DNA of 39,038 nt from a virus. Each line of letters opens with the position of its first letter. Within the stretch, counting starts at the first letter, position 1. Below, piece after piece: positions 3,124 to 39,038 of this stretch. Below the pieces are notes generated by a model that searched no databases, had not been told where the DNA came from, and was given only the letters and a program-made list of their open reading frames with translations. The translations under genes were made by a program, and so were the position numbers. Where the stretch lies: the IMG/VR virus record IMGVR_UViG_3300048839_000781, positions 1-39,038 of that record; one strand, given 5' to 3'.

Positions 3124-3150
3124 AAAAAGACCGCCGGCAACCAGCGGTCT
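3124..3150 (-). terminator. Rho-independent terminator after the capsid gene
   Basis: On the minus strand the arms AGACCGC (3150-3144) and GCGGTCT (3134-3128) pair exactly. The stem extends inward by T-G, G-C and G-C pairs to a loop of three bases (TTG). A run of five T follows (3128-3124). This is a textbook intrinsic terminator about 25 bases after the capsid stop codon, and it would end the head operon. Confidence 0.9.
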
Positions 3151-9767: not shown

Positions 9768-10564
9768 TCATTTTTGCTTCCGGTAGTGTCCTACGAGCCA
9801 GTAGAAGTATTTTTCTGGGTCCTTCTTGGCTCCGGCGTCGGCTATGTTGCTGTATGCTCGCTGGCAGAGGCTTGGGTATAGTTTGAAGATCCGGAACCAC
9901 TTGCCGGTGGGTTTTCCACTTATCCCCAGAGTTTTCCACATTCTTGCTGCTTCGTCTTGCCATTGGTGGGTTACGTTCCCTTTAGTGGGCTTGGGGATCT
10001 GGTACGTGCTTAGGAGGTTTCCGATCGAGGTGGTTGGTCCTCCTCGTTTTGAGTCTTTTTTTTTACGACAGCTCTGCTGTTATTTAATAACTTAGCTTTA
10101 CTTAACTTAACTTCCTCCTCGGATTGTGACGTGACGTTACGTGACGTTACGGATTGGGACGGGGCGTTGTTTTCCAGCATGGTTTTTAGTATCTCCTCGG
10201 CTTGATCCCAGTTCTCTCTTGGGCTTCCTTTGTAATCAAATTCTATTATGGTTTGGGGATTGATGTCTTTGCGTCTCGTTTGGTTTTTGTAGTGGTCGGT
10301 GATTAGATAGTACGATTTGTTACGCCACGTTACGTCGCGTACCAGTCCGTTACGTATCATTTGCGTGACCCATTCGTCGACTTGGGCTTCGGTCACTTCG
10401 AGCATTGGAACTACTTTTGCTTTGATCGTCTTGGGGCTTCCTTGAATGAATCCTAGATTGTCCGCGTGGGGTAGCATCCATGTGTAGAGGAGCTGCCCTC
10501 CTATGGGTAGTTCGGCTACCTTCTCGCTTATGGATATTTTGCTATCGAGCAGTGCTTTACTCAT
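9768..10564 (-). CDS. Replication initiator/DnaD-like protein, long form through -1 frameshift
   Basis: The frame from ATG 10564 gives 170 codons up to an A AAA AAG site (10061-10055). A -1 shift there opens 95 further codons and ends at the TGA at 9770-9768, giving 265 residues. The added part looks like real protein: it holds WQDEAARMWKTLGISGKPTG, KWFRIFKLYPSLCQRAYSN and DPEKYFYWLVGHY, rich in Trp, Tyr and Phe and without stop codons. It could form a C-terminal domain. It fills what would otherwise be an empty stretch of nearly 300 bases in a tightly packed genome. The alternative is a homopolymer sequencing error in the A9 run that splits one ordinary gene. Confidence 0.7.
10010..10564 (-). 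CDS. Replication initiator/DnaD-like protein, short (0-frame) form
   Basis: A protein of 184 residues, beginning MSKALLDSKISISEKVAELP. The N-terminal 90 residues look like a winged-helix region found in phage replication initiators (GQLLYTWMLPHADNLGF, then VDEWVTQMIRNGLVRDVTW and YYLITDHYKNQTRRKDI). The middle is polar and probably a linker. Read without frameshift, it ends 14 residues after the slippery run. Host polymerase and helicase recruitment is the likely role because the phage has no obvious helicase or primase. The gene follows the ParB-methyltransferase and has a palindrome and TATAAA box upstream. Confidence 0.65.
   Translation of the reverse strand: MSKALLDSKISISEKVAELPIGGQLLYTWMLPHADNLGFIQGSPKTIKAKVVPMLEVTEAQVDEWVTQMIRNGLVRDVTWRNKSYYLITDHYKNQTRRKDINPQTIIEFDYKGSPRENWDQAEEILKTMLENNAPSQSVTSRNVTSQSEEEVKLSKAKLLNNSRAVVKKKTQNEEDQPPRSETS
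10027..10061 (-). other. Programmed -1 frameshift signal (A AAA AAG plus hairpin)
   Basis: The heptamer A AAA AAG is in the correct phase of the 0 frame (10061-10055), as in dnaX. Nine bases later comes a hairpin at 10045-10027: arms GAGG/CCTC, an A-A mismatch, GG/CC, and the loop ACCAA. Heptamer, spacing and stem together are the standard arrangement for -1 frameshifting. Confidence 0.65.
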
Positions 10565-12125: not shown

Positions 12126-12263
12126 TCATTCCTTTTTACCGCAGTCGTCGCAGTACCACTTGCCGTTGATGTGTCCTTCCATCTCTCCGCCGCAGTCTCC
12201 GCATTTGCCTTGCAGAAACCAGACTAGTCTCGTGATCCATTTCGGGATCGGGATCTCTACCAT
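12126..12263 (-). CDS. Zinc ribbon microprotein, 45 residues
   Basis: A short gene whose product, starting MVEIPIPKWITRLVWFLQGK, ends in two CxxC pairs: CGDC at residues 21-24 and CDDC at 38-41. This is a compact zinc ribbon. The ATG overlaps the last seven bases of the dehydrogenase gene, so the two are likely co-translated. The N-terminal half is hydrophobic and aromatic and may contact a membrane or partner protein. The function is unknown. The conserved Cys spacing and the overlap argue that it is a real gene. Confidence 0.7.
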   Translation of the reverse strand: MVEIPIPKWITRLVWFLQGKCGDCGGEMEGHINGKWYCDDCGKKE

Positions 12264-13219
12264 GCCTTGTCCTCCGGTAGGAGGGGAATGGTGTTTTTAA
12301 CGTCTTTTCTCATTCGGGCGTTCATTTCGAGGAGGAACTCTACCAGCTCCAGCGGTTGTCCGGCTTCTCGCGCGTATACCGCTATGGCGTTTAGGTCTTT
12401 GGGGAGACACTTGCCACTGAAGCCTGGGTTGTCTTCGTATGCCAGCGTGTGGCTTCTGCCTATCCGTGGGTCGTCCAGCCATGCTTCTCTTAGGGTTAGG
12501 TAGTCGACTCCGGTTGCTCGGCATAGTCTTGCCCAGTCGTTGACGAACATTACTTTGGTTGCGAGGAAGCAGTTTTCCATGTACTTGCAGTATTCGGCGG
12601 TCAGGCTGTCCATCTGTCTTATCCGGCAGTTGGCGTGGAGGACTTTGGACCAGCATTCGGCTGCTTTGCGTACCGCTTCCGGCTTGCCTCCTAGGATGAT
12701 GAAGGGATCGCGCTGGGGTTCCACGAGTGGGTGTCCTAGCGTCTCTCCGACGTATTCCGGTTGCATCACTACTTTGGTGTTGTACTTTTCTGCGAGGCGG
12801 TCGGTGGTTCCTGGTGTTACGGTGCTTCTGATGATGAACAGATCGACGTGTTCGTGCCATCGCTCGATTGCCTGTTCTACCATGCTGGTGTCGCAGGAGC
12901 CGTCTTTATTCATTGGGCTTGGTGTGCTTATGAATGCGACGTCCCATCTGGTGTCTGCTTCGGCGCCGTTGTAGCCTTTGATCAAACTTTTTGAACCGTC
13001 CTTGTCGTAGGGTTCGAATCTTTGGTAGCGGTTTTCCTCCGGCAGTCTGTCGGCATGGGAGAATCGCAGGAGCAGTCCTGAGTTTGGGGTCCAGATGTCT
13101 GCTTGGGTGAAATACTTATGGACGAATTGACCGACCCAGCCATAGCCGATCAGCAAGGTTTTCGGTTCCTTGTTTATTACGTCGCTGTGAGACTCCGGTT
13201 TGCCGAGCTTACTCTGCAT
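12257..13219 (-). CDS. UDP-glucose/GDP-mannose dehydrogenase family protein, short form
   Basis: A protein of 320 residues. The NAD-binding motif GYGWVG is at residues 25-30, STPSPMN at 98-104 and STVTPGTT at 132-139. The central domain has KYMENCFLATKVMFVN (about 212-227) and the catalytic Cys271 in SGKCLPKD. These are the active-site elements of enzymes that oxidise a sugar nucleotide to a uronic acid. Typical members have about 430 residues with a third, nucleotide-sugar-binding domain; here the protein stops soon after the central domain. The enzyme may use an atypical substrate or need a partner. It is the last large gene of the glycan cassette, with a good Shine-Dalgarno (GGGAGGG). Confidence 0.85.
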   Translation of the reverse strand: MQSKLGKPESHSDVINKEPKTLLIGYGWVGQFVHKYFTQADIWTPNSGLLLRFSHADRLPEENRYQRFEPYDKDGSKSLIKGYNGAEADTRWDVAFISTPSPMNKDGSCDTSMVEQAIERWHEHVDLFIIRSTVTPGTTDRLAEKYNTKVVMQPEYVGETLGHPLVEPQRDPFIILGGKPEAVRKAAECWSKVLHANCRIRQMDSLTAEYCKYMENCFLATKVMFVNDWARLCRATGVDYLTLREAWLDDPRIGRSHTLAYEDNPGFSGKCLPKDLNAIAVYAREAGQPLELVEFLLEMNARMRKDVKNTIPLLPEDKAW

Positions 13220-13484: not shown

Positions 13485-14329
13485 AGTGTCTCACCTCCTT
13501 TTGTTTTTATAATGTTTTGTATTAGCTCGAGGTATTGCGGTCCGCTTTGTTTGACGTGGTGCTTCTCGATTACTTCATTGTAGCGCATTTCGACTTCCTT
13601 TGTCCTCTCCTCGGGGTCCATGAATCGCTCGAGTTCCTCGGGACTGGTTGCTACCGGCATTTTTAGCGCCCAGCTTGTCAGGGTCTTGTTTGGCGATTTG
13701 AACTTGTGGCGCCGGTCCTTGGTGAAGTCGGGGAGGAGGACGATGTCGTGTTTGATCAGCTCCTCGTTTAGGGTTTCGTATTTGAAGTCAATGTTTATGT
13801 CGGCGTTCCGGTAAGGTCGCTCGCTTATCACGGCTAGGCTTAGGAGCATGTCTTTTAGTGGGATGAGGGTTTGCTCCAGCACGACTTGGTTGCTTGAGTA
13901 GCCGAACCAAACGACGCTTCTGGCTTTGCCGATGTGTTCTTCCTTTACCGGCGTGTGTTCTTCCGGATCGATGCGGTCGGGGATTATGACGACCGGCTTG
14001 TCTGTCAGTTGCACGAGGAAGTCTCGCAGGGCTTTGGTTGGGACCGTGAAGGCGTCTACCAGCTCGGTTAGTTCGGTTATCGGTCTGCCGTCCATCCAGT
14101 CGGGGTCGCAGATGTCGAATATCTTTACTCCTTTGAATTGCTCCATGTGTTTTTTGTAGTAGGCTTTTTGGTAGATTACCGCGTCGTATCGCACGCCGTC
14201 GTAGAACTCCTCTATCTCTGGGCAGTATTTGCGGACCCAGCGTCCCCTGATCCGGCTTGATCCTACTTGGTTTTCTTTGCGGTTGTCGTATTTTTCCATG
14301 TCGAGCATGGCGATTTTTAGGTTTTTCAT
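13481..14329 (-). CDS. Putative glycosyltransferase-like protein
   Basis: A protein of 282 residues starting MKNLKIAMLDMEKYDNRKEN. The layout suggests a GT-B-like Rossmann protein: an early YDAVIYQKAYYKKHMEQFKG, a middle KPVVIIPDRIDPEEHTPVKE, then KARSVVWFGYSSNQVVLEQT, which resembles the start of the second domain of family 4 transferases. Later DIVLLPDFTKDRRHKFKSPN and LTSWALKMPVATSPEELERF fit the nucleotide-sugar-binding region. Catalytic residues cannot be assigned with certainty. I chose the ATG at 14329, which overlaps the preceding TGA; a longer open frame further upstream is a shadow of the neighbouring gene. Confidence 0.6.
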   Translation of the reverse strand: MKNLKIAMLDMEKYDNRKENQVGSSRIRGRWVRKYCPEIEEFYDGVRYDAVIYQKAYYKKHMEQFKGVKIFDICDPDWMDGRPITELTELVDAFTVPTKALRDFLVQLTDKPVVIIPDRIDPEEHTPVKEEHIGKARSVVWFGYSSNQVVLEQTLIPLKDMLLSLAVISERPYRNADINIDFKYETLNEELIKHDIVLLPDFTKDRRHKFKSPNKTLTSWALKMPVATSPEELERFMDPEERTKEVEMRYNEVIEKHHVKQSGPQYLELIQNIIKTKGGETL

Positions 14330-15276
14330 AGTATTGTGCTTAGGTAGTTTTGCCAGTCTGATGCCCACCTTGTAATGTTGAGCTTCTCGATCGCTGTTTG
14401 CTTTCCGCGCTGTCCTATCTCTCTGGCTTCTTTGACGCGGTTGGTTATCAGGTCTTCTATCAGGTCGGCTGCTGTTTTTGGGTTGTCCGGTACGATGAAG
14501 CCGTTTACTCCGTTTTCGATGTATTCCTCGATGTCGTGGTGTCTGGTCGTTACCACGCAGCATCCGGATAGCATGGCTTCTGTCCGGCTTCGTGGCATTG
14601 GTGATTGCCAGCCGAGGTGGACAAATACGAGGCTTCTGCCGAGGTATTCTTTGTAGTCTTCTACTGTGTGGAATTTGGTTGTTGCCATGATCCAGATTAG
14701 CTCGATGCCTCTTTCCTTTAGGATGTCCATTGTCGCGTGGAGGAGTTCTCGGCGGTAGGCTTTGTTCATTCCTCCGGCACTCATACAGGCGACGGCTCGT
14801 GGTTCTTTGGGGAGGTCTTGCCAGTCGCTTGGTTCCAGTCCGTGGATGATCGGCGTTCCCCATCCCCATTGGGCTGCTGCTTGTTTGGAGTTGGTTACCA
14901 TTGGGATGTCGCCTACCATGTCTTTTATTTTTTCGATCACTTGGTCGTTTTCGTATTGGTCGTGGTAGGGGGTCATGTGGTTTATCACGACGCGCTTCAT
15001 GCCCTCTGTTAGTTTTTTGAACTCTTGGAAGAGGAGTCCTTTGCTTATTCTCGGGTCGATGCATTGCTGGTCGATGTGGAGGATTGCGAGGTCGTAGTCT
15101 TCTGGCTTGAAGTCTATTACCATGTTCATGTTGTCCGGCTGGTTCCGGCTGGTTCCTCCCCATTCTCGGTACATATTCTGCATCAGGTCGTACTGCTTGA
15201 ATAGCTTTGCCAGCTCGTATTGGTGAGCTGTATGCCATGGGACGCCGATTACTTTTAGTTGTTTTGTGTCTGTCAT
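14326..15276 (-). CDS. Glycosyltransferase, GT-B fold (family 4-like)
   Basis: A protein of 316 residues. The C-terminal half holds the family 4 signature: SLVFVHLGWQSPMPRSRTEA, followed by MLSGCCVVTTRHHDIEEYIE and NGVNGFIVPD. The Glu of RTEAMLSGC corresponds to the conserved nucleotide-sugar-contacting Glu. The N-terminal part (DYDLAILHIDQQCIDPRISK) is the acceptor domain, with a relatively short linker. It would transfer a sugar from an activated nucleotide to an acceptor that is not known. The ATG overlaps the TGA of a 36-residue membrane peptide gene, and the end overlaps the next glycosyltransferase gene by four bases. Confidence 0.82.
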   Translation of the reverse strand: MTDTKQLKVIGVPWHTAHQYELAKLFKQYDLMQNMYREWGGTSRNQPDNMNMVIDFKPEDYDLAILHIDQQCIDPRISKGLLFQEFKKLTEGMKRVVINHMTPYHDQYENDQVIEKIKDMVGDIPMVTNSKQAAAQWGWGTPIIHGLEPSDWQDLPKEPRAVACMSAGGMNKAYRRELLHATMDILKERGIELIWIMATTKFHTVEDYKEYLGRSLVFVHLGWQSPMPRSRTEAMLSGCCVVTTRHHDIEEYIENGVNGFIVPDNPKTAADLIEDLITNRVKEAREIGQRGKQTAIEKLNITRWASDWQNYLSTIL

Positions 15277-15383
15277 ATTTTTTTCAGTATTACTAGTGCT
15301 AGGACCACTGACCAGAATACGACTCCTGCCATGATTCCGGCTATTAGCCAGATGATTTGTTCTTGTCGGCTCATTTTCTTCAT
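15273..15383 (-). CDS. Single-span membrane peptide, 36 residues
   Basis: This small product starts MKKMSRQEQ and then has one long hydrophobic stretch (IIWLIAGIMAGVVFWSVVLA, about residues 10-29) followed by ILKKI. The positive start and hydrophobic middle fit a single transmembrane helix. It overlaps the exonuclease end and the next glycosyltransferase start, both by four bases, which supports translation. It may anchor a partner to the membrane. The function is unknown. Confidence 0.65.
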   Translation of the reverse strand: MKKMSRQEQIIWLIAGIMAGVVFWSVVLALVILKKI

Positions 15384-15955
15384 AGGTTTTGCATCATTTT
15401 TTGGATAACGGCTCGGGTTGCTCTGATGTCTGAGAGTGCATCGTGGGCGTCTATTTCGATGCCGTAGTGCTGGCAGATGGTTGAGAGTTTCATGTTGTCG
15501 CAGGGGAGTTGTCCGGCTGCGGTGAGGAAGTTTCCGAAGACTCGGCTGTCCAGCGCACGCCAGTTTTGGTAGCTGGTTATTCCCCATTTGCGGTCTTCGT
15601 CGTTGCCGTGGTCTTTGAATAGCTTGTTTAGGAACTCTAGGTCAAATTGCACGTTGTGTCCGGCTGGGTAGAACTTGTCGGGCATTTTAGTGTACTTTGG
15701 GATGTAGGCTCCCAGAAGGTCTTTTATTTGGGCGAGCATTTCCTCCGGTTGCTGGTATGTTTTCAGTTCCTCGATCGTTATGCCGGTGGTTTGAATTGCC
15801 TGGGGATCTATCACGTCCCAGTTCTTGGGTTGGCATCTCAAGTTGATTTCCTCTTTTACTTCTCCGTCGACTTCGATGATTGCGGCGAATTGGGTTATCT
15901 CGTGTTTCTGGTAGTCGGTTCCGGTGGTTTCGGTGTCGAAGTAGAGGATTTTCAT
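15380..15955 (-). CDS. DEDDh 3'-5' exonuclease (DnaQ-like)
   Basis: A protein of 191 residues. All catalytic residues of the family are visible: Asp7 and Glu9 in YFDTETTG, Asp105 in GHNVQFDLEFL, and His171 and Asp176 in DAHDALSDIRA. Such enzymes degrade DNA or RNA from the 3' end in a metal-dependent way, as proofreading or repair nucleases. No polymerase is encoded here, so it may serve recombination or end-trimming with the Sak4-like ATPase and the VRR-NUC nuclease. It lies among glycosyltransferase genes but is translationally linked to its neighbours by short overlaps. Confidence 0.92.
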   Translation of the reverse strand: MKILYFDTETTGTDYQKHEITQFAAIIEVDGEVKEEINLRCQPKNWDVIDPQAIQTTGITIEELKTYQQPEEMLAQIKDLLGAYIPKYTKMPDKFYPAGHNVQFDLEFLNKLFKDHGNDEDRKWGITSYQNWRALDSRVFGNFLTAAGQLPCDNMKLSTICQHYGIEIDAHDALSDIRATRAVIQKMMQNL

Positions 15956-16284
15956 TTTGTTTGGTCTTTCTTTTCTGATGTTGATAATTTTTGGAGTTCC
16001 TTTTCTAGGTTGGTTGCCAGTCCTGCGACCAGCTTTAGGATCTCGGTTGCGCTGAATTGGATGCTGAATGGGATCAGGAGGACTTTGTTGTTGTCCTTAC
16101 AGAAGTAGAACATCGGCGCTATTTTGACGAGGTTCCGGCTGTCTATCTCCTTCTCAGTGCGCGTTACTTCTTGTGCTTTGTGAGCCTTGCCTTTGCTGTC
16201 TTTTATCTCGAACTCCGGTCCGACAGCTTGCTCGCTTACTAGCTCTCGTTTTATTCCTGGTAGTATTCCGTTTGGTTTTTTCAT
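15952..16284 (-). CDS. Hypothetical protein, 110 residues
   Basis: I do not recognise this protein. It starts MKKPNGILPGIKRELVSEQA, and has a strand-rich centre (LVKIAPMFYFCKDNNKVLLI), a hydrophobic helix-like part (EILKLVAGLATNLEKELQKL) and a charged tail ending in STSEKKDQTK. The upstream AAAGGAAACT gives a fair ribosome binding site. It overlaps the exonuclease start by four bases. It is the first gene after the gap containing a promoter-like pair and a structured element, so it may head a transcription unit. Confidence 0.65.
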   Translation of the reverse strand: MKKPNGILPGIKRELVSEQAVGPEFEIKDSKGKAHKAQEVTRTEKEIDSRNLVKIAPMFYFCKDNNKVLLIPFSIQFSATEILKLVAGLATNLEKELQKLSTSEKKDQTK

Positions 16285-16301
16285 AGTTTCCTTTGTTGTT
16301 T

Positions 16302-16380
16302 AGAGCGCCAGCGCCACGGCTTGGCTGTTGGATATGATTCCGACACCAGAGCCATCGCGCTGGGCTGGTTGATTCGCTCT
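16302..16380 (-). ncRNA. Candidate structured RNA ahead of the 110-residue gene
   Basis: In this gap of 158 bases (16285-16442) the arms AGAGCG (16302-16307) and CGCTCT (16375-16380) pair, and the adjacent CCAGCG (16308-16313) pairs with CGCTGG (16358-16363). That gives 12 paired bases that are contiguous on one side. Inside, GGCT/AGCC (16318-16321, 16350-16353) and TGTTGG/CCGACA (16326-16331, 16340-16345) extend the stem, the last with one wobble on the plus strand and one mismatch on the minus strand. The orientation is therefore uncertain; the minus strand is favoured by the promoter upstream. It is not a tRNA by my check. Confidence 0.4.
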
Positions 16381-16432
16381 GTCAATCGCCTTCGCAGGTT
16401 GTGACTGATAAGTTCGAATCGCGGTTTGGTTG

Positions 16433-16483
16433 TGTCTTATTCCTATCCATATAATTTATAGCATTGCGTCTTGGAAATTGCAA
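16433..16483 (-). promoter_or_regulatory. Promoter-like pair with operator-like element
   Basis: TTGCAA (16483-16478) and TATAAA (16460-16455) are spaced by 17 bp at the end of the glycosyltransferase fusion gene. The element tgtcttattcctatcca (16433-16449, plus strand) follows at about the transcription start and matches the copies at 26399 and 27468 in 14 of 17 positions. The -35 box is imperfect. Confidence 0.45.
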
Positions 16484-18017
16484 TATCCTTGTACCGACGC
16501 CACTTGGCGCTGGACTTTCGTTTTGTTATCGCTTGGGCTTTTGGGACGAACTGGAGGATCATTTTGTTTTGCTCCCATCGGGTCCGGACTTCTTGGGTCA
16601 TTCCGCCGTACTGGGTTATCTGTTCGTTGAATGCTCCTACTCTTAGGAGGTCTTTTCGGTTTACGAATGAGAAGTTTTCGACGAATGATTTTTGGCTTTG
16701 GTCCTTCATTCCCCAGAGCCAGATGCCTTCCTTCCGGCGTTCGTAGAATGCGTCTAGGGCTTCCTTCTCCGGTAGCATTCGCTCGTCGACGAACCAGAGC
16801 CATTGTCCTTCGGCTTCCATGACGCCTTTGTTTCGGGCGCGTGCCAGACCGTAGGTTTTTTGTCCTTTGAGGTCTCGGGTTGCTGTTTGGAAGAACTTTA
16901 TGGTGTGGCTGGTTTCGCCTCTGATCTGCTTTATCACTTCCTCGTTTAGTTCCGGTTGCTCTCCGTCGTCCACGACGATGATTTCGAGGGGTCCGTAGGT
17001 CTGGCTCATCACATGGCTTAGGGTTTCGATCAGCTTGTCCGGCGTTGAGACGGTGGGGACGATTGCTGTTACCAGTTCTTTGCCTGTTAGGAGCTGGTGG
17101 TATAGCTGGCTGTACTTTCGCGCGTAGATTTCGTAGTTGCGGTATCTCAGACTGTGAACGGACTCTTGGCGTATCTCGTCTCTTAGTTGCTTGTTTTGAG
17201 TAAGTTCTGTTAGCTGTTTTTTGAGGTCTTCCAGATCGTCTGGGTCGCCTCGTCTCACTTGCATGTTGCGTCCGTTGAAGGTGTCGGGGACGTGTCCGAT
17301 CCTTCGGGTTAGGACTGGGGTTCCGCAGCTCATTGCTTCGAGGATGGGCAGGGTTCCGGACTCGTATCCGTCCACGCTGTTGCAGACGTGGATCATGCTC
17401 TGGTGGTAGAGGTCTCTCAAGTCCTCGTCGCTTATCCGGTGGAAGAAGTCGACGGCTTCGGTTGCCATTACTTGCTCGTAGTAGGTTCTGTCGCTTATGT
17501 CTCCGACGAGTGCCATCTTTATTCCGAGATCCTTGCATGCTTGGGCTACCGGCAGGACGCCTTTTTTGGCTTCTATTCGGTTTGAGACCATGATCACGCC
17601 GTAGTGGAATGATGCCGGTTCTGCTGGCTGGTATTCCCAAAATTCTGTATCCACTGGGTGTTCAATTTTTACGCTTTGAGTATTTATTGTCCTCAGCTGT
17701 TCGGTGTTTAGGACGACGTTGATTTTGTAGTTTGTCCACGGTGTTCGGGTCAGGTCGTAGGGGTTGTGGTGGGTTAGGAGGCATGGTTTTTTTATCTCGT
17801 ACATTGAGTAGAGGACTTCGGCTGTCTTCCAGTATTGAAAGTCTACGACGTCACACCATGCGAGGGCTTCCTCGAAGGCTTGTAGTTGCTCGGGGCTTGG
17901 TCTCTTTGGGTGTACTGCCACGAGTTTGAAGGCGTGCCATGGGGTGTGCTTTATTTTATATTCGCACATCCGGTGAATTGCCGTTCCTTCCTTTTCTGAG
18001 ACGAGGAGGACTCTCAT
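16443..18017 (-). CDS. Two-domain glycosyltransferase: GT-B (family 4) plus GT-A (family 2)
   Basis: A protein of 524 residues starting MRVLLVSEKEGTAIHRMCEY. Residues 1 to about 330 are a family 4-like GT-B unit: VIMVSNRIEAKKGVLPVAQA, then ESGTLPILEAMSCGTPVLTR with the conserved Glu. From about 335 a family 2 GT-A unit follows: VTAIVPTVSTPDKLIETLSH, EIIVVDDGEQPEL and LARARNKGVMEAEGQWLWFV. The usual DxD motif seems to be replaced by VDER, so metal binding may differ. Two transferase units in one chain suggest that two sugars are added in sequence. The ATG at 18017 has a good Shine-Dalgarno (AGGGAGG). A longer upstream open frame is not needed. Confidence 0.85.
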   Translation of the reverse strand: MRVLLVSEKEGTAIHRMCEYKIKHTPWHAFKLVAVHPKRPSPEQLQAFEEALAWCDVVDFQYWKTAEVLYSMYEIKKPCLLTHHNPYDLTRTPWTNYKINVVLNTEQLRTINTQSVKIEHPVDTEFWEYQPAEPASFHYGVIMVSNRIEAKKGVLPVAQACKDLGIKMALVGDISDRTYYEQVMATEAVDFFHRISDEDLRDLYHQSMIHVCNSVDGYESGTLPILEAMSCGTPVLTRRIGHVPDTFNGRNMQVRRGDPDDLEDLKKQLTELTQNKQLRDEIRQESVHSLRYRNYEIYARKYSQLYHQLLTGKELVTAIVPTVSTPDKLIETLSHVMSQTYGPLEIIVVDDGEQPELNEEVIKQIRGETSHTIKFFQTATRDLKGQKTYGLARARNKGVMEAEGQWLWFVDERMLPEKEALDAFYERRKEGIWLWGMKDQSQKSFVENFSFVNRKDLLRVGAFNEQITQYGGMTQEVRTRWEQNKMILQFVPKAQAITKRKSSAKWRRYKDIAISKTQCYKLYG

Positions 18018-18250
18018 TTTTTGCCTCCCTTCTTGGTCTCCGCAGATTTGCGGGGACCATCTTTTTTGTAGTTGACGTCTTCTATCTTTTCGCGTTCTGC
18101 TTCGAAGACTTCCTCGAGGTCTTTTACCACTTCCAGCATTCCCTCTTTGATTTTTTTCGGGTCGATGTCTTCTGTCCATTCGATGGCGGTTGCCATGCCT
18201 TCGAGCTTTCCTATTGCTCCGGCTAGTTGGGACCAGTCTTTGAGTATCAT
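18014..18250 (-). CDS. Hypothetical helical protein, 78 residues
   Basis: I do not recognise this protein. It starts MILKDWSQLAGAIGKLEGMA and is mostly helical with many acidic and basic residues (EGMLEVVKDLEEVFEAEREK). The tail is Lys-rich (KSAETKKGGKK) and might bind nucleic acid. The ATG overlaps the nuclease stop (ATGA) and carries AAGGAGA upstream. Its end overlaps the glycosyltransferase start by four bases. A coiled-coil partner protein is possible. Confidence 0.65.
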   Translation of the reverse strand: MILKDWSQLAGAIGKLEGMATAIEWTEDIDPKKIKEGMLEVVKDLEEVFEAEREKIEDVNYKKDGPRKSAETKKGGKK

Positions 18251-18720
18251 TGGCGGTCTCCTTCCTTGAGTGCCACGGTGGGTGCTTTGCTTGATTTGGT
18301 CGTTGCGGTCGGCTTTTTTCGGGGTTGCCTTAGCGTGTAGTTGGTAAATCGCGAGAAGGTTCCGGCGTCCGCCTTTTCTTTGGCTTCTGTTATTTGGCTG
18401 AATACCTCTTGTACTTGGGAGAGATCGTCGACGACCATTGCTATTCCGCCGGCTTTTGCGAAGTCGTGCAGGAATTGCAGTTGGCTCTCCGTTGGCTTTC
18501 CTCCTGGGCGCTTTACTTCTATTGCCAGTGGTTTGCCGTTCCAGACTCCTATGATGTCGCTTATTCCGGCTACTGATGCGGCGCGGAAGACGTGTCTGGT
18601 TCCTTTGTATTCTGATACACGCATGCCGGCGTTTTGTCGCCAGACGAATGTGCTTGGCTGGTAGCCGAGCCATTGGATGATTGCGTCTTGGATGTCCTTT
18701 TCTAGTTGTTTGGTTGCCAT
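18247..18720 (-). CDS. VRR-NUC domain nuclease
   Basis: A protein of 157 residues. The catalytic pattern of VRR-NUC (a PD-(D/E)xK fold) is visible in order: Gln29 with Asn30 in VWRQNAG, Asp55 in GISDIIGVWNG, and Glu68 with Lys70 in LAIEVKRPGG. Stand-alone VRR-NUC proteins are common in phages and cut branched or structured DNA; some resolve recombination intermediates. Residues after 125 (FSRFTNYTLRQPRKKPTATT) are basic and probably flexible. The gene overlaps the preceding glycosyltransferase by 19 bases, so it is embedded in the glycan cassette by position but should act in DNA processing. Confidence 0.88.
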   Translation of the reverse strand: MATKQLEKDIQDAIIQWLGYQPSTFVWRQNAGMRVSEYKGTRHVFRAASVAGISDIIGVWNGKPLAIEVKRPGGKPTESQLQFLHDFAKAGGIAMVVDDLSQVQEVFSQITEAKEKADAGTFSRFTNYTLRQPRKKPTATTKSSKAPTVALKEGDRQ

Positions 18721-19601
18721 AGTTGGTGTCCGATATGCTCGGGTTTCAGTCGTTTGGTAATTGCTTCGTGCATCACTTCCGGCTGTTCGCTTATCGGGAT
18801 GATGCGGTTTGCCTTTTCTCGTACTGCCATGATTTGTCCGAGGACTTGCGCTCTCACGCTTTCCTCGTCTTCCGGTTTTGTCTGCTTGTATACTTCGGTG
18901 AATCCCCTGAATCGGTTCCAGCCTTTGTTTGCTTTGACTCGCTCGCTTACTACCATGTCTAGTGTCTTGAATGTCCAGAGGTAGTTGTACAGGTCTGCTC
19001 CGGTTCCGCCGATCAATCCTTCAAGTGCGCTTCCTTCTATTATCGCCTCTCCTTGGGGGATGTCTTCGTAGTAGGCGTCTTCATGCCAGATTGGGTGGCA
19101 CAGGTCGGTTTTGAAGCTGGGGTCGAAGCCGTATTTGATCTTTGGGTATTTTGCCTTGTGGATGATGTAGTACATTTGGCTTTTGCTGAACCAGTTGGTC
19201 ACGGCTCCGCTTTGGAGCTTCTGGCATTTGATGACTGCTTTGCCTTTGCCTTGCTCGCGTTCCACTTCTTGTCTGAGGCGTTTTGCCTGGTCTTGGTGGA
19301 AGATGTGATCGCTCTCTCCGGCTGCGACCCAGTCGGCGTCGGTGTTTTCTAGTCCGTAGTTCCATGCTTTGCAGAACTCTGCCCATGACCAGTTTTCCTG
19401 ATCCCATTCTCGGGTGATGATCCGGATCTTGCCTTGCTCGTACTGGGGGAGTGCTTGTATCGCTTCGACGGTTCCGTCGGTTGAGTCGCCGTCCACTACC
19501 ACGACTTCGTCTGCCCAGTAGAGGTGGCTGAGGATTGCTTCGATGAAGGTGTCTCCTCGCTTGACCGCGTTTGTTACTGGTAGGAATGCTGCTATTTTCA
19601 T
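18702..19601 (-). CDS. Glycosyltransferase family 2 (GT-A fold)
   Basis: A protein of 299 residues. The N-terminal MKIAAFLPVTN and ADEVVVVDGDSTDGTVEAIQ (residues 30-49) are the nucleotide-binding start of family 2 transferases. The metal-binding position shows as WVAAGESDHIF, with ESD in place of the usual DxD. HEDAYYEDIP and the following region fit the acceptor side, and the C-terminal third is helical. It should transfer a sugar to a polysaccharide, lipid, protein or nucleic acid acceptor; the sequence does not say which. The ATG overlaps the TGA of a methyltransferase gene. An alternative longer frame upstream is a shadow. Confidence 0.85.
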   Translation of the reverse strand: MKIAAFLPVTNAVKRGDTFIEAILSHLYWADEVVVVDGDSTDGTVEAIQALPQYEQGKIRIITREWDQENWSWAEFCKAWNYGLENTDADWVAAGESDHIFHQDQAKRLRQEVEREQGKGKAVIKCQKLQSGAVTNWFSKSQMYYIIHKAKYPKIKYGFDPSFKTDLCHPIWHEDAYYEDIPQGEAIIEGSALEGLIGGTGADLYNYLWTFKTLDMVVSERVKANKGWNRFRGFTEVYKQTKPEDEESVRAQVLGQIMAVREKANRIIPISEQPEVMHEAITKRLKPEHIGHQLWQPNN

Positions 19602-20164
19602 AGTAGGGTTGCTGGCTGTTCTTTTATAATGGTGTACTTTAGCCATTTTTTGTTTATGTGGCTTCGCTCCACTTTGATTTCCTTTACTTGTTGTCCGTCG
19701 GTTAGTTGCTCTTGGGTTACTGCCCACTTGCCGCCGTACTCGTCGTTTATCTGTTCTCCGGCTTGGCGGTATTCGGGGTCTTCCTCGACGATGAAGAGGG
19801 CGTGGTTTGCTCGCTGGTACATCTGGTCGATGACTCCTTGGAGCTTGTCTGGTGGGATCACGAGCAGGGTGATGTTTGCCATTACCACGTCGAACTTCCG
19901 GCGGTTTAGTCCCTGTGGTCCCCATGGTTGGGTTAGGTCGTATCCGTTTTTGAAGTCGATGCTGGTGTACTTCTGCCGGTATGGGGTTGCTAGGAACTTT
20001 GCGAATGATCCGTCGTATCCTCCGACGTCCAGTGTTGTTTTGAGTCCTGCTGCGCTTAGGATCTGAGTCAGGGCTTTTGCTGCTTCGGCTTTTTGGGCGC
20101 CGTATGCTGGATGTCGTTGTTTCTCCAGCCAGAAGTGAGGTTTGTCCTTCCAGTAGTTGCTCAT
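19598..20164 (-). CDS. Class I SAM-dependent methyltransferase
   Basis: A protein of 188 residues starting MSNYWKDKPHFWLEKQRHPA. The SAM-binding motif I is TTLDVGGYDGSFAKFL (near residue 43), an acidic residue after strand two is in YTSIDFKNGYDL, and KFDVVMANITLLVIP gives motif IV. This is the class I fold. Substrate cannot be deduced; in sugar cassettes such enzymes often methylate sugar hydroxyls. The gene overlaps the aminotransferase stop and the next transferase start by four bases each. A Shine-Dalgarno (GGAGGG) lies nine bases upstream. Confidence 0.85.
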   Translation of the reverse strand: MSNYWKDKPHFWLEKQRHPAYGAQKAEAAKALTQILSAAGLKTTLDVGGYDGSFAKFLATPYRQKYTSIDFKNGYDLTQPWGPQGLNRRKFDVVMANITLLVIPPDKLQGVIDQMYQRANHALFIVEEDPEYRQAGEQINDEYGGKWAVTQEQLTDGQQVKEIKVERSHINKKWLKYTIIKEQPATLL

Positions 20165-21171
20165 GCTCTGATCCCTCCCTCCACTAGGCGTTTTGTCGCC
20201 TCGATGACCGTTTGGACTTCCTCCTCGGTCATGGTGTCGTAGAGGGGAAGGCTTACCGTGTGTTCGTAGGCGTGTTCGATTGCTTCTCTGCCGTGGACGG
20301 TCATGTCTCTGAATGGGGTCATTTGGTGCAGTGGTTTGAAGTGGACTCCGCACTCGATTCCTTCTGCCATCATGTTTTGGATGAAGGCGTCTCGGTTGTC
20401 GAGGTAGATTCTGTAGAGGTAGTCTCCGTCGTTGTTGATCCCGAAGGCGTCATTGTAGGCGGTTACAATCGCTTGTCTTTTTGCGTTGGTTTCGTCCAGT
20501 CTTCTTAGTTGCTCGAGTACGATGGCTGCTTGGAGGTTGGTGTAGTGTCTTTTGTATCCGATCATTTCGACGTCGTAGTCCCATGAGTTCCGGTAGCCGG
20601 TTCCTTGGTTCCTGCCGTAGGTGGCGGCTGACCTTGCCCATTTTGCGAAGTTCTCGTCGTCGGTTGCTATTGCTCCGCCGTCTGCTGATCCTATGGTTTT
20701 AGTCGGGTAGAAGCTGAAGCAGAGTTTCATGGCGTCCGGCGCTCCGGCGTCCTTCATTTTGCGGTACTGGTTGCGTCGCAGTTCGTGGGCTGAGTCGAAG
20801 ACGTTGCTTCCTGTCATTTGGTAGTAGTGTCCGACCCAGTCTGTCCGGTCGTCCAGTTCTACCTGGCATCCGGCTTCCAGCGCGGCGTTTAGTGCCAGTG
20901 GTACTGTCATGCTGGGGATCTTTAGGTGGATGGTGTCTTTTTGGAGCATCTCGTATTTGAGACTGAGGAAGAGGGCGCTTGTGCAGGAGTCGACGAGGAC
21001 GACATGCCTTGCTCCCACGTATTCTGCCAGCTCCTTCTCGGTTTCGAATACCAGATTGCCCAGACCGATGTAGCCGGTCTCTATCAGTGGCTTGATTGCC
21101 TCGAGTGCGTTTCCTAGGTTTATTTTTTTGAAGGGGATTTTGTTTTTCTGTGAGGATTCTGCTAGTTTCAT
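20161..21171 (-). CDS. DegT/DnrJ/EryC1 family PLP-dependent sugar aminotransferase
   Basis: A protein of 336 residues that converts a keto sugar nucleotide into an amino sugar. The PLP-binding Lys158 lies in FYPTKTIGSADGGA, preceded by the cofactor-contacting DSAHE (126-130). The N terminus (YIGLGNLVFETEKELAEYVG) and SCTSALFLSL (62-71) match the family. Length is near the usual 370, with a slightly short middle. It is the first gene after a candidate promoter at 21178-21206 and overlaps the next methyltransferase by four bases. Together with the dehydrogenase it implies that the phage alters sugar nucleotides rather than only transferring them. Confidence 0.92.
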   Translation of the reverse strand: MKLAESSQKNKIPFKKINLGNALEAIKPLIETGYIGLGNLVFETEKELAEYVGARHVVLVDSCTSALFLSLKYEMLQKDTIHLKIPSMTVPLALNAALEAGCQVELDDRTDWVGHYYQMTGSNVFDSAHELRRNQYRKMKDAGAPDAMKLCFSFYPTKTIGSADGGAIATDDENFAKWARSAATYGRNQGTGYRNSWDYDVEMIGYKRHYTNLQAAIVLEQLRRLDETNAKRQAIVTAYNDAFGINNDGDYLYRIYLDNRDAFIQNMMAEGIECGVHFKPLHQMTPFRDMTVHGREAIEHAYEHTVSLPLYDTMTEEEVQTVIEATKRLVEGGIRA

Positions 21172-21177
21172 GGATTT

Positions 21178-21206
21178 AGTGTAGCAAATGCGGATCAGTT
21201 TGTCAC
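21178..21206 (-). promoter_or_regulatory. Candidate leaderless promoter for the aminotransferase unit
   Basis: GTGACA (21206-21201) and TACACT (21183-21178) are 17 bp apart, and six bases separate the latter from the ATG at 21171. GATAGGATAG sits just upstream and resembles part of the operator-like element. Both boxes are imperfect. Confidence 0.35.
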
Positions 21207-21210
21207 TATC

Positions 21211-21813
21211 CTATCTCTGCTTCCTTGCTTCCACGAAGTAGCCGATCGGGTAGGTGTAGGGTCCTTTGGCTTGTCTGATCTTGCTGTACCTGAGTCCTTC
21301 CGTGGCGAAGAATGCTTGCAGGTGGGGGAGTCCGACGGTGGCTTTCCTCTCCTCGATCCGGACGATTTCAAGTCCGGCTTTGGGGAGTACCTTCTCGTAC
21401 CATTCGTCGGTGTAGCGCAGGTAGTCCCAGACGTCGTGGTGGGGGTTTACGAATGGGGTGCTTATGATGACCGTTCCTCCTTGCTTGGTTGCGTAGCTGA
21501 GGTTCTGGATGGCTTGGACTGGGTTCCAGCAGTGTTCGAGGACTTCCAAACAGAAGACGATGTCGTATTGCTTCGGGACCCACTTGGGTTTGTTGAATCC
21601 GGCTAGGAAGACGGTTTGCTCCCAGTCTTCGTTTAGGTCGGCGATGTAGTCTGGGTTCCATTGGTCGTCGACGTCCATGGTGTGGTACTCTGCTGGTTCT
21701 CCGGTGGTGAGCGCTCGTGCCAGTTTGTCTTGACATCCGACGTCCAGTACCGTTTTGCCGGCGATGTTGATCTGTCTGACGAGGGAGTTTAGCTGTTCAC
21801 GGCTTTTGCTCAT
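21211..21813 (-). CDS. Class I SAM-dependent methyltransferase
   Basis: A protein of 200 residues. Motif I is KTVLDVGCQDKLARAL (residues 19-34), followed by an acidic loop in YHTMDVDDQWNPDYIADLNE and by YDIVFCLEVLEHCWNP, typical of Methyltransf_11-type enzymes. GGTVIISTPFVNPHHD is the usual late motif. It most likely methylates a sugar or other small acceptor made in the cassette. It overlaps the preceding glycosyltransferase by four bases. No metal-binding or target recognition domain is visible, so DNA methylation is unlikely. Confidence 0.87.
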   Translation of the reverse strand: MSKSREQLNSLVRQINIAGKTVLDVGCQDKLARALTTGEPAEYHTMDVDDQWNPDYIADLNEDWEQTVFLAGFNKPKWVPKQYDIVFCLEVLEHCWNPVQAIQNLSYATKQGGTVIISTPFVNPHHDVWDYLRYTDEWYEKVLPKAGLEIVRIEERKATVGLPHLQAFFATEGLRYSKIRQAKGPYTYPIGYFVEARKQR

Positions 21814-22772
21814 AGTCCGAGTGTTCTGTCGATGGTTGCTTTGTAATGCTCCGCCATTATCGGGAGGCTGTGTTTGAGGGCGTTGGCTCTGGCTCTTTGG
21901 CTCAGTTCCTCTCTCTCGGTTAGGAGTTGCTCGATCTGCTCGGTGAAGGTTCGGTCGTATTCGATCATGAATCCGGCGTCTTCGACCATCTCGGTTACTC
22001 CTCCGTAGGCGTTGTACATGACCGGCAGTCCGCATGCGAGGGCTTCCAGTACGACGTTTGGTGCTGGGTCTGCGAAGCTTGGGTAGAAGAGGAAGTCGGC
22101 TGATCGCATCATTGCTGCTTTGGCGGTGTCGTCGTTTATGATTCCGAGTCGCTGGTGGGTCTCTCCGTTGAAGAATCCCATGTTGTAGGTCATCCATTCG
22201 GTTGGGTATCTGCCCAGCAGGAGGAGGTTGGCTTCTTTGTTGCGGCTGAAGTATTCTCGGTACATTGCCAGCACTTCCTCATATCGCTTGTTGTTGTCTT
22301 TGCGGTATGCGACGTGGAGGATCTTTGGGTTTCCTCTGAATGCTACTTTGGGTCCGTCCGGTGCGAAGATGTCGGTGTCTACTCCGTTTCGGATCGTGCT
22401 GTGAGGACAGCTGACGCCGTTCCTTTTTAGCAGGACTCCGACGGTGTCTCTGATGAAGTCGCTTTGGTAGATGATGTGGTCGGCTTTGGTGCTGTATTCG
22501 ACGAGGCGCCTGGTTCCGCGTCCGCTATTTCGTGAGTCCTCCGGCACGCCGTCCATTCTCAGGAGGAACTTGGCGCCGTTCTTTTTGCTTCGCTCGATGG
22601 TCTCTCCGTTTACGGTTGATGGGCTGAATGCGAAGAGGAGTTCGTGTGGTTCATGTTCTGGGACCAGTTCTACTTCGGGGTAGGCGTCTTGGATGGCTTT
22701 GACGAAGTTGCGGTAGAAGGTGTATCCGCCGCCGATGTTCTGGTCGCTTATGTAGGGGATGTGTATTTTCAT
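21810..22772 (-). CDS. Glycosyltransferase family 4 (GT-B fold)
   Basis: A protein of 320 residues beginning MKIHIPYISDQNIGGGYTFY. The glycine-rich acceptor-side loop, the mid segment CPHSTIRNGVDTDIFAPDGP and the C-terminal FYPSFADPAPNVVLEALACG with the conserved Glu are classic for family 4. LPVMYNAYGGVTEMVEDAGF follows as usual. It should use a nucleotide-sugar donor. It is the first large gene of the glycan cassette, immediately after two small membrane or unknown genes that share its transcript. The start overlaps the stop of the membrane protein gene (ATGA). Confidence 0.9.
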   Translation of the reverse strand: MKIHIPYISDQNIGGGYTFYRNFVKAIQDAYPEVELVPEHEPHELLFAFSPSTVNGETIERSKKNGAKFLLRMDGVPEDSRNSGRGTRRLVEYSTKADHIIYQSDFIRDTVGVLLKRNGVSCPHSTIRNGVDTDIFAPDGPKVAFRGNPKILHVAYRKDNNKRYEEVLAMYREYFSRNKEANLLLLGRYPTEWMTYNMGFFNGETHQRLGIINDDTAKAAMMRSADFLFYPSFADPAPNVVLEALACGLPVMYNAYGGVTEMVEDAGFMIEYDRTFTEQIEQLLTEREELSQRARANALKHSLPIMAEHYKATIDRTLGL

Positions 22773-38608: not shown

Positions 38609-39038
38609 TTATCTTACACCATTTTTGGCTTTCGCTTCTAGAACCTTGTTGTCGTAGTCGCTTTTTTTGCCTTGCAGTCGCATGATGGTGAGGTTGATTT
38701 CGACGTCTTCGAGGGGTTCCTCCATCATTTGGGCTTTGCTGAGGTGGAAGTGTTTGCGGTAGACGTACTCCTCCAGTCTGGTCATTGCCCAGAGCTGGTC
38801 GTCTTCGTCAAGCGTGGGGTCGGGCGTTCCGTCGAATACTGCCCATTCGAGGGCAGTTAGCCTTTTGGGACTAACGTTTTTTTTCCCTGTAGCACGTTAA
38901 GTGCTTCGTTGATGATTTCCATTGGGAGGTCTTGGAGGTTCTCTTTGGTGATGTCTGTTAGTCCGGTTCCGTCGTAGCCTTTACCTTCCACGAACTTCTC
39001 TTTTAGGAGGGAGATCATGTTTTTGGATGGCTTCTCTG
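38609..39038 (-). CDS. Tail assembly chaperone, long (GT) form via -1 frameshift, 3' part
   Basis: The chaperone frame enters here from the window start (in phase across the join). A -1 shift at the slippery run opens a second frame of 89 sense codons ending at the TAA at 38611-38609, five bases before the tape measure start. The extension contains LEWAVFDGTPDPTLDEDDQL, LEEYVYRKHFHLSKAQMMEE and DVEINLTIMRLQGKKSDYDN. The complete long product would be 199 residues. This G/GT arrangement is conserved in long-tailed phages and in lambda is made by a -1 shift at GGGAAAG. The extension has no suitable start of its own. Confidence 0.85.
38838..38887 (-). other. Programmed -1 frameshift signal with two hairpins
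   Basis: CAG GGA AAA AAA ACG lies in the 0 frame (38889-38875), so G GGA AAA and A AAA AAA are both in slippery phase. Counting from the first heptamer, five bases lead to the hairpin GTTAG/CTAAC (38875-38856). A second hairpin ACTGCCC/GGGCAGT of seven base pairs (38857-38838) follows at once. Confidence 0.85.
38857..39038 (-). CDS. Tail assembly chaperone, short (G) form, 3' part
   Basis: This is the rest of the 0-frame product that begins at 197. It continues LLKEKFVEGKGYDGTGLTDI, passes EIINEALNVLQG and, without frameshift, ends GKKTLVPKG at the TAA at 38859-38857. Total length is 116 residues. The join is supported by the 28-base end repeat and by exact phase. One codon differs between the two copies: GCA (Ala) near base 20 against CCA (Pro) near 39030. 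Confidence 0.8.
   Translation of the reverse strand, partial: EKPSKNMISLLKEKFVEGKGYDGTGLTDITKENLQDLPMEIINEALNVLQGKKTLVPKG
39011..39038. repeat. End repeat: copy of bases 1-28 with one mismatch
   Basis: Bases 39011-39038 equal bases 1-28 except at base 20 (c) against 39030 (g). The genes read through the join in phase, so this marks a circular assembly or a terminally redundant molecule. It is not an integration site by itself. Confidence 0.85.

Follow-up and report, generated by a model that had tools for sequence, protein, structure and literature searches.

The predicted replication initiator gene of an uncultured phage with a 39,038-base genome is written in two reading frames. Its coding frame changes by −1 within a run of nine adenines (A9), and the two frames together describe a winged-helix N-terminal domain, a linker and an unannotated helical C-terminal domain. 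It is this frame switch that carries the finding, the signal at the site being weak by itself; as to how the full-length protein is made, we lean towards slippage on the A9 run, by either the ribosome or RNA polymerase.

Genome and Gene Neighborhood

The window, by which we mean the whole stretch of DNA that was analyzed, is the IMG/VR virus record IMGVR_UViG_3300048839_000781 over its entire length of 39,038 bases. Its ends share a 28-nt overlap (positions 1–28 and 39011–39038) with one mismatch; the record is therefore probably a complete, circularly permuted genome that carries a variant where its ends meet. The phage genome is A-rich at 51% GC, its main genes all lie on the minus strand, and the initiator gene is found between a DNA methyltransferase gene and the terminase and portal genes (Table 1). 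Because the nearest relatives occur in Patescibacteria genomes, a member of the Patescibacteria is the most likely host. Searches of the window for tRNAs and Rfam RNAs found none.

Two further features of the genome were recorded. A block of glycan genes (12257–13219 and 14326–22772, minus strand) comprises a UDP-glucose dehydrogenase gene together with sugar-nucleotide and glycosyltransferase-like genes, and by eye its other genes appear aminotransferase-like and methyltransferase-like; a sugar-nucleotide/glycosyltransferase block of this kind is uncommon in a 39-kb phage and perhaps serves surface modification. The motif AAACT-ATG or TAAAACT-ATG recurs at many gene starts of the window, its A-rich part immediately ahead of the start codon, often without a Shine-Dalgarno sequence, and is perhaps a host-specific initiation signal.

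Table 1. Features of the initiator locus and of the second frame-changing gene, with positions in the window.
Feature	Position	Strand	Remarks
DNA methyltransferase with ParB-like N-terminal part	12009–10609	−	adjoins the initiator gene
Initiator gene, both frames	10564–9768	−	
0-frame ORF, 184 aa	10564–10010	−	winged-helix N-domain (residues ~10–132) and disordered linker
A9 run, followed by G, inside the linker	10064–10056	−	longest homopolymer in the record
Slippery heptamer A_AAA_AAG, phased to the 0-frame	10061–10055	−	
−1 frame extension, 95 codons and stop	10055–9768	−	GAC (10055) to TGA (9770–9768)
Hairpin CGAGG.GG / CC.CCTCG	10046–10026	−	8 nt past the heptamer
First ATG in the extension frame	9941–9939	−	would yield just 57 aa, cutting into the domain
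Likely small terminase subunit	start 9727	−	follows the initiator gene
Large terminase	9269–7764	−	
Portal	7767–5383	−	
A8 run in tail assembly chaperone (GGGA8C, 38887–38876)	38884–38877	−	second −1 frame change

Change of Reading Frame at the A9 Run

The preliminary description of this locus had pointed to a correctly phased A_AAA_AAG heptamer, a hairpin after it, 95 stop-free codons beyond a −1 shift, and two products of 184 and 265 aa, all of which we recovered (the heptamer within the A9 run; Table 1). The coding character of the extension was examined with a codon score built from the codon frequencies of 34 other genes of the window and calibrated on 282-nt pieces of known window genes, for which the 5th percentile of in-frame pieces was 0.18 and out-of-frame pieces never exceeded −0.05. 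Read in the −1 frame, the extension reaches +0.28 bits per codon, whereas its five alternative frames lie between −0.65 and −0.96; this score and the homologues described below agree with the earlier view that it reads as real protein. The 38 codons ahead of the first ATG (9942–10055) also score as coding (+0.135 versus −0.8 or worse in the other frames), and the coding region thus begins at the A run rather than at ATG 9941. Upstream, the −1 frame is limited by a stop at 10082, and from this stop down to 9941 it contains no ATG, GTG or TTG codon. As the preliminary description had it, the extension is accessible solely by changing frame by −1 on the A run.

When the entire record was segmented by coding frame, a switch again fell at the A run, and just two real coding segments lacked any start codon: the initiator extension and the latter half of the gene for the tail assembly chaperone. 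A third start-less segment (28165–28022) was rejected as a composition artefact of PT/EP repeats within one ORF. Generally poor assembly of the record was likewise rejected, as the window holds no other unexplained frame break.

N-Terminal Part and Linker

The 0-frame part matches PHROG 1408, “replication initiation protein” (E = 1.4e-10), and is 47% identical over 73 aa to a Paenibacillus phage DnaD-domain protein. In an AlphaFold2 model of the N-terminal part (23 relatives), a confident winged helix extends to residue 132 and residues 137–168 of the Lys/Ser-rich linker are disordered, with the A run at the linker end; a fold search with this model returned winged-helix regulators as the nearest structures. 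The PHROG match and the winged-helix model thus bear out the earlier identification of a replication gene, and on sequence grounds the gene is predicted to encode a phage replication initiator with a winged-helix N-domain. When the fused protein was scanned, the PHROG 1408 match reached residue 182, barely entering the extension. The DnaD-domain and PHROG 1408 initiators have an N-domain homologous to that of the window protein and share its length and layout (N-terminal winged helix, linker, C-terminal helical part), but they show no frame break, and the C-domain encoded in the window belongs to a different, unannotated family.

C-Terminal Domain

The extension gave no significant match to Pfam, NCBIfam, PHROG or PDB sequences. 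Its AlphaFold2 model is all helical with a pLDDT of 82.5 (>90 across most of the core), and a fold search of this model against the PDB and viral models at E values up to 0.001 found no match. Homologues of the extension were nevertheless identified at eight loci (L205, L033, L197, L200, L203, L204, L201, and L202), and in both viral contigs and genomes of Patescibacteria the domain ends other initiators, always in one uninterrupted frame: proteins of about 245 aa with another helix-turn-helix N-terminal part (L197, L203, L204, L236, L242, and L243) and a 356-aa initiator with an HTH_36 N-terminal part (L200). For L203 and L200, the PHROG search gave families of replication initiation proteins. 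The extension is a genuine helical C-terminal domain of the initiator, not an add-on.

A profile of nine sequences found matches in 83 of 380 Patescibacteria genomes (about one-fifth), mostly as stand-alone genes of about 90–120 aa with their own start. Copies that stand alone with their own start are exemplified by a phage gene (L202, 90 aa) and a Patescibacteria gene (L201, 98 aa). The possibility, raised in the preliminary description, that relatives start the second part separately is therefore correct for the domain as such, as L201, L202 and the host genes demonstrate, but not for the gene considered here. A firm by-product of the analysis, as judged from sequence, is a widespread, unannotated domain that phage initiators have in common with genes of Patescibacteria hosts. 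If lambda O and the DnaD-type initiators are a guide, the C-domain probably contacts the helicase, its loader or the primosome.

Within the stand-alone family (L209–L235, L201), at least four genes, and by eye about eight, directly follow a peptidyl-tRNA hydrolase gene (pth), as in L223. In three further cases of about 300 aa (L215, L220, and L227), the domain is fused N-terminally to a HAD-like hydrolase domain, the Pfam match being shown for L220 only.

Relatives of the Whole Gene

No close viral relatives emerged when the complete initiator, its extension or the terminase was searched as a single protein, and relatives were reached only via alignments and via the portal; relatives of the methyltransferase yielded no initiator match. 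An alignment-driven scan gave 80 viral loci with the N-domain; with duplicates and genes cut at an end set aside, 72 complete genes remained. All 72 are encoded in one frame, with lengths of 218–506 aa (median 278); 184 aa is shorter than every one of them, 265 aa is typical, and the window gene fits the length class of initiators with a C-terminal domain (about 220–400 aa) only if its frames are joined. Both parts are united in a single 281-codon frame in L205 (IMGVR_UViG_3300020152_000254), which has the same N-terminal part and C-domain, so that the search for relatives encoding the two parts as one, suggested at the outset, was successful. In the related viral record L033, a single frame covers the middle part together with the C-domain, which sits at the matching place after the linker and shows 28% identity with a Smith-Waterman score of 61, equaled by 1 in 20,000 shuffles (5e-5).

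Since relatives carry this kind of C-terminal part uninterrupted, the normal protein is the one reached by a −1 shift, and the 184-aa product of unshifted reading is a truncated one; the earlier notion that the shift adds an extra domain is not upheld. Two loci end differently: L180, in a Patescibacteria genome, encodes the N-domain alone (151 aa) beside terminase genes and a related methyltransferase gene, and in L181 the end is shorter and of another kind. Separately, the N-terminal part of the L033 initiator is broken near position 3150 by one missing base at CCCATGA, without a slippery motif, probably through sequence error or mutation.

Strength of the Slippage Signals

What rises above chance at the initiator site is the coding signal and the homology. 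In-phase A_AAA_AAG heptamers are present in the genome at chance level (3 seen, 4.0 expected), and with 1.3 A9 runs expected from base composition, one such run is unremarkable; A7 and A8 runs elsewhere in genes leave the reading frame intact. The hairpin, which lies within the 5–9 nt spacing considered for a stimulatory structure, folds at −9 to −11.1 kcal/mol (z = −0.8 to −1.7), and 10% of genome positions are at least as stable. By eye, the 40 nt upstream of the heptamer hold no Shine-Dalgarno-like purine-rich stretch, and no close relative sharing this A9 junction was found among the relatives. A conserved slippery heptamer was considered on account of A_AAA_AAC in the same linker of L205 and L033 and was rejected, as the linkers of the 80 relatives contain 3 such heptamers versus 6.4 expected; that of L205 is followed by no stable structure.

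The second frame change of the genome occurs in the tail assembly chaperone, a gene that spans the record ends (197–1 joined to 39038–38609, minus strand). The −1 change sits here at the classic phage position, and two strong hairpins lie downstream of the A8 site (−16.9 kcal/mol), a stability matched by just 0.6% of genome positions. The G/GT frameshift of tail assembly chaperones is a widespread programmed shift of tailed phages. The two genes of this genome are alike in that the fusion is reached solely by a −1 change; the tail site, however, combines strong downstream structure with a widespread programmed shift, and the initiator site has neither. The A8 shift supports a host that is permissive to slippage.

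How the Full-Length Protein May Be Made

In the reading that we lean towards, a single gene would encode a two-domain initiator, with a frame break inside the linker at the A9 run. The ribosome may slip by −1 at A_AAA_AAG, or RNA polymerase may add one A to part of the transcripts, either of which would give the 265-aa protein; unslipped expression would give 184 aa with the DNA-binding domain and without the C-terminal domain. The two routes would fit equally well. Bacterial transcription is known to slip on stretches of nine A (PMC5009743), and in Citrobacter rodentium slippage on an A11 run restores the split tssM gene, both forms of whose product are needed (PMC4256274). The A9 run has the length of about nine or more A/T at which a break is regarded as a candidate for transcriptional slippage of the tssM/mxiE type. 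In favor of slippage, the coding frame switches at the A run with no start codon close behind, relatives such as L205 join both parts in one frame, and the only other frame-broken gene in the 39-kb record is the tail chaperone, with its −1 change at A8; against it, the heptamer, the A9 run and the hairpin are ordinary, and the break is unique to this record among comparable relatives and falls at its longest homopolymer.

Alternatively, the gene may be uninterrupted in the population, the record having lost one base of the A run through sequencing, assembly or a minority variant, in which case the protein would be an ordinary 265-aa initiator. We regard this as a real possibility, though not a probable one. 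Homopolymers are the likeliest places for indels, the complete viral relatives are single-frame without exception, no stimulator stands out near the A9 run, and the one-base break in L033, which has no slippery motif, indicates that such records carry indels. Yet about 36 kb of coding sequence shows no other frame break, the other A7 and A8 runs in genes stay in frame, and short-read consensus errors at A9 are uncommon, a point that holds for short-read platforms. That the locus makes two proteins, one being the 184-aa N-domain product that stops at 10010 and the other a separately started C-domain (57 aa from ATG 9941, or from a non-canonical start), would accord with the stand-alone copies in L202 and L201 and with the N-domain-only gene of L180. 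It is nonetheless very improbable, as no ATG, GTG or TTG codon is available ahead of 9941, the 38 codons upstream of that position score as coding, a start there deprives the predicted domain of helix 1 and a portion of helix 2, and initiator-type relatives join both parts in one frame.

The readings overlap, a dnaX-like programmed switch being a special case of slippage, and their probabilities do not sum to one. Such a switch, in which the shift is under selection and the 184-aa/265-aa product ratio regulates replication, could draw on the dnaX-type heptamer with a hairpin at workable spacing, on the −1 shift that the same phage already performs at A8, on the natural N-domain-only relative L180, and on the need of tssM for two forms from one A run (PMC4256274). 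It appears doubtful all the same: heptamers are not enriched in the linkers of relatives and the site is not conserved, the hairpin is much weaker than the structure at the tail site of the same phage, and our literature search gave no published phage replication initiator with a programmed shift. That a programmed shift tunes two forms, as the preliminary description proposed, may be so but gains no support from a unique site, heptamers that are not enriched and an ordinary hairpin. A more specific scheme, in which the C-domain, a relative of the stand-alone Patescibacteria host protein, is joined on solely by A9 slippage, the short DNA-binding form and the full form are made in a set ratio, and the short form acts as a brake on replication, strikes us as unlikely.

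Comparison With Known Systems

Among known cases of slippage, tssM1 of Citrobacter rodentium resembles the initiator gene in having an early stop after an A run while relatives carry the C-terminal domain in one frame, and in yielding long and short forms through in-frame restoration, as proposed here; in tssM1, however, the run is A11, and experiments showed both that slippage occurs in the RNA and that the two forms are needed, whereas the gene considered here is a candidate with A9 that encodes a predicted phage replication initiator (PMC4256274). The dnaX gene (tau/gamma) offers the same A_AAA_AAG followed by a hairpin, again in a replication gene with a long and a short product. In E. coli dnaX, the default is to read the full frame, and shifting yields the short form, whereas in the phage gene the shift would give the long form; dnaX also has an upstream Shine-Dalgarno stimulator and conservation, both of which the phage site lacks. 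Poly-A frameshifts in Blochmannia and Buchnera, including those in dnaX and dnaG, are likewise homopolymer indels in otherwise intact genes and are thought to be rescued by polymerase slippage, but there the breaks are many and the genomes those of AT-rich endosymbionts, as opposed to a single break in a phage of 51% GC (PMC3017870).

Significance

If the A9 state is real, slippage would operate at the core of phage replication and not in tail genes, and two forms of the initiator would exist, a prediction that is directly testable. Regardless of slippage, several types of phage initiator have as their C-terminal module an unnamed helical domain, to which a stand-alone protein of Patescibacteria is related. 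The domain thereby offers a starting point for asking how the replication machinery may be loaded in these little-studied bacteria and in their phages.
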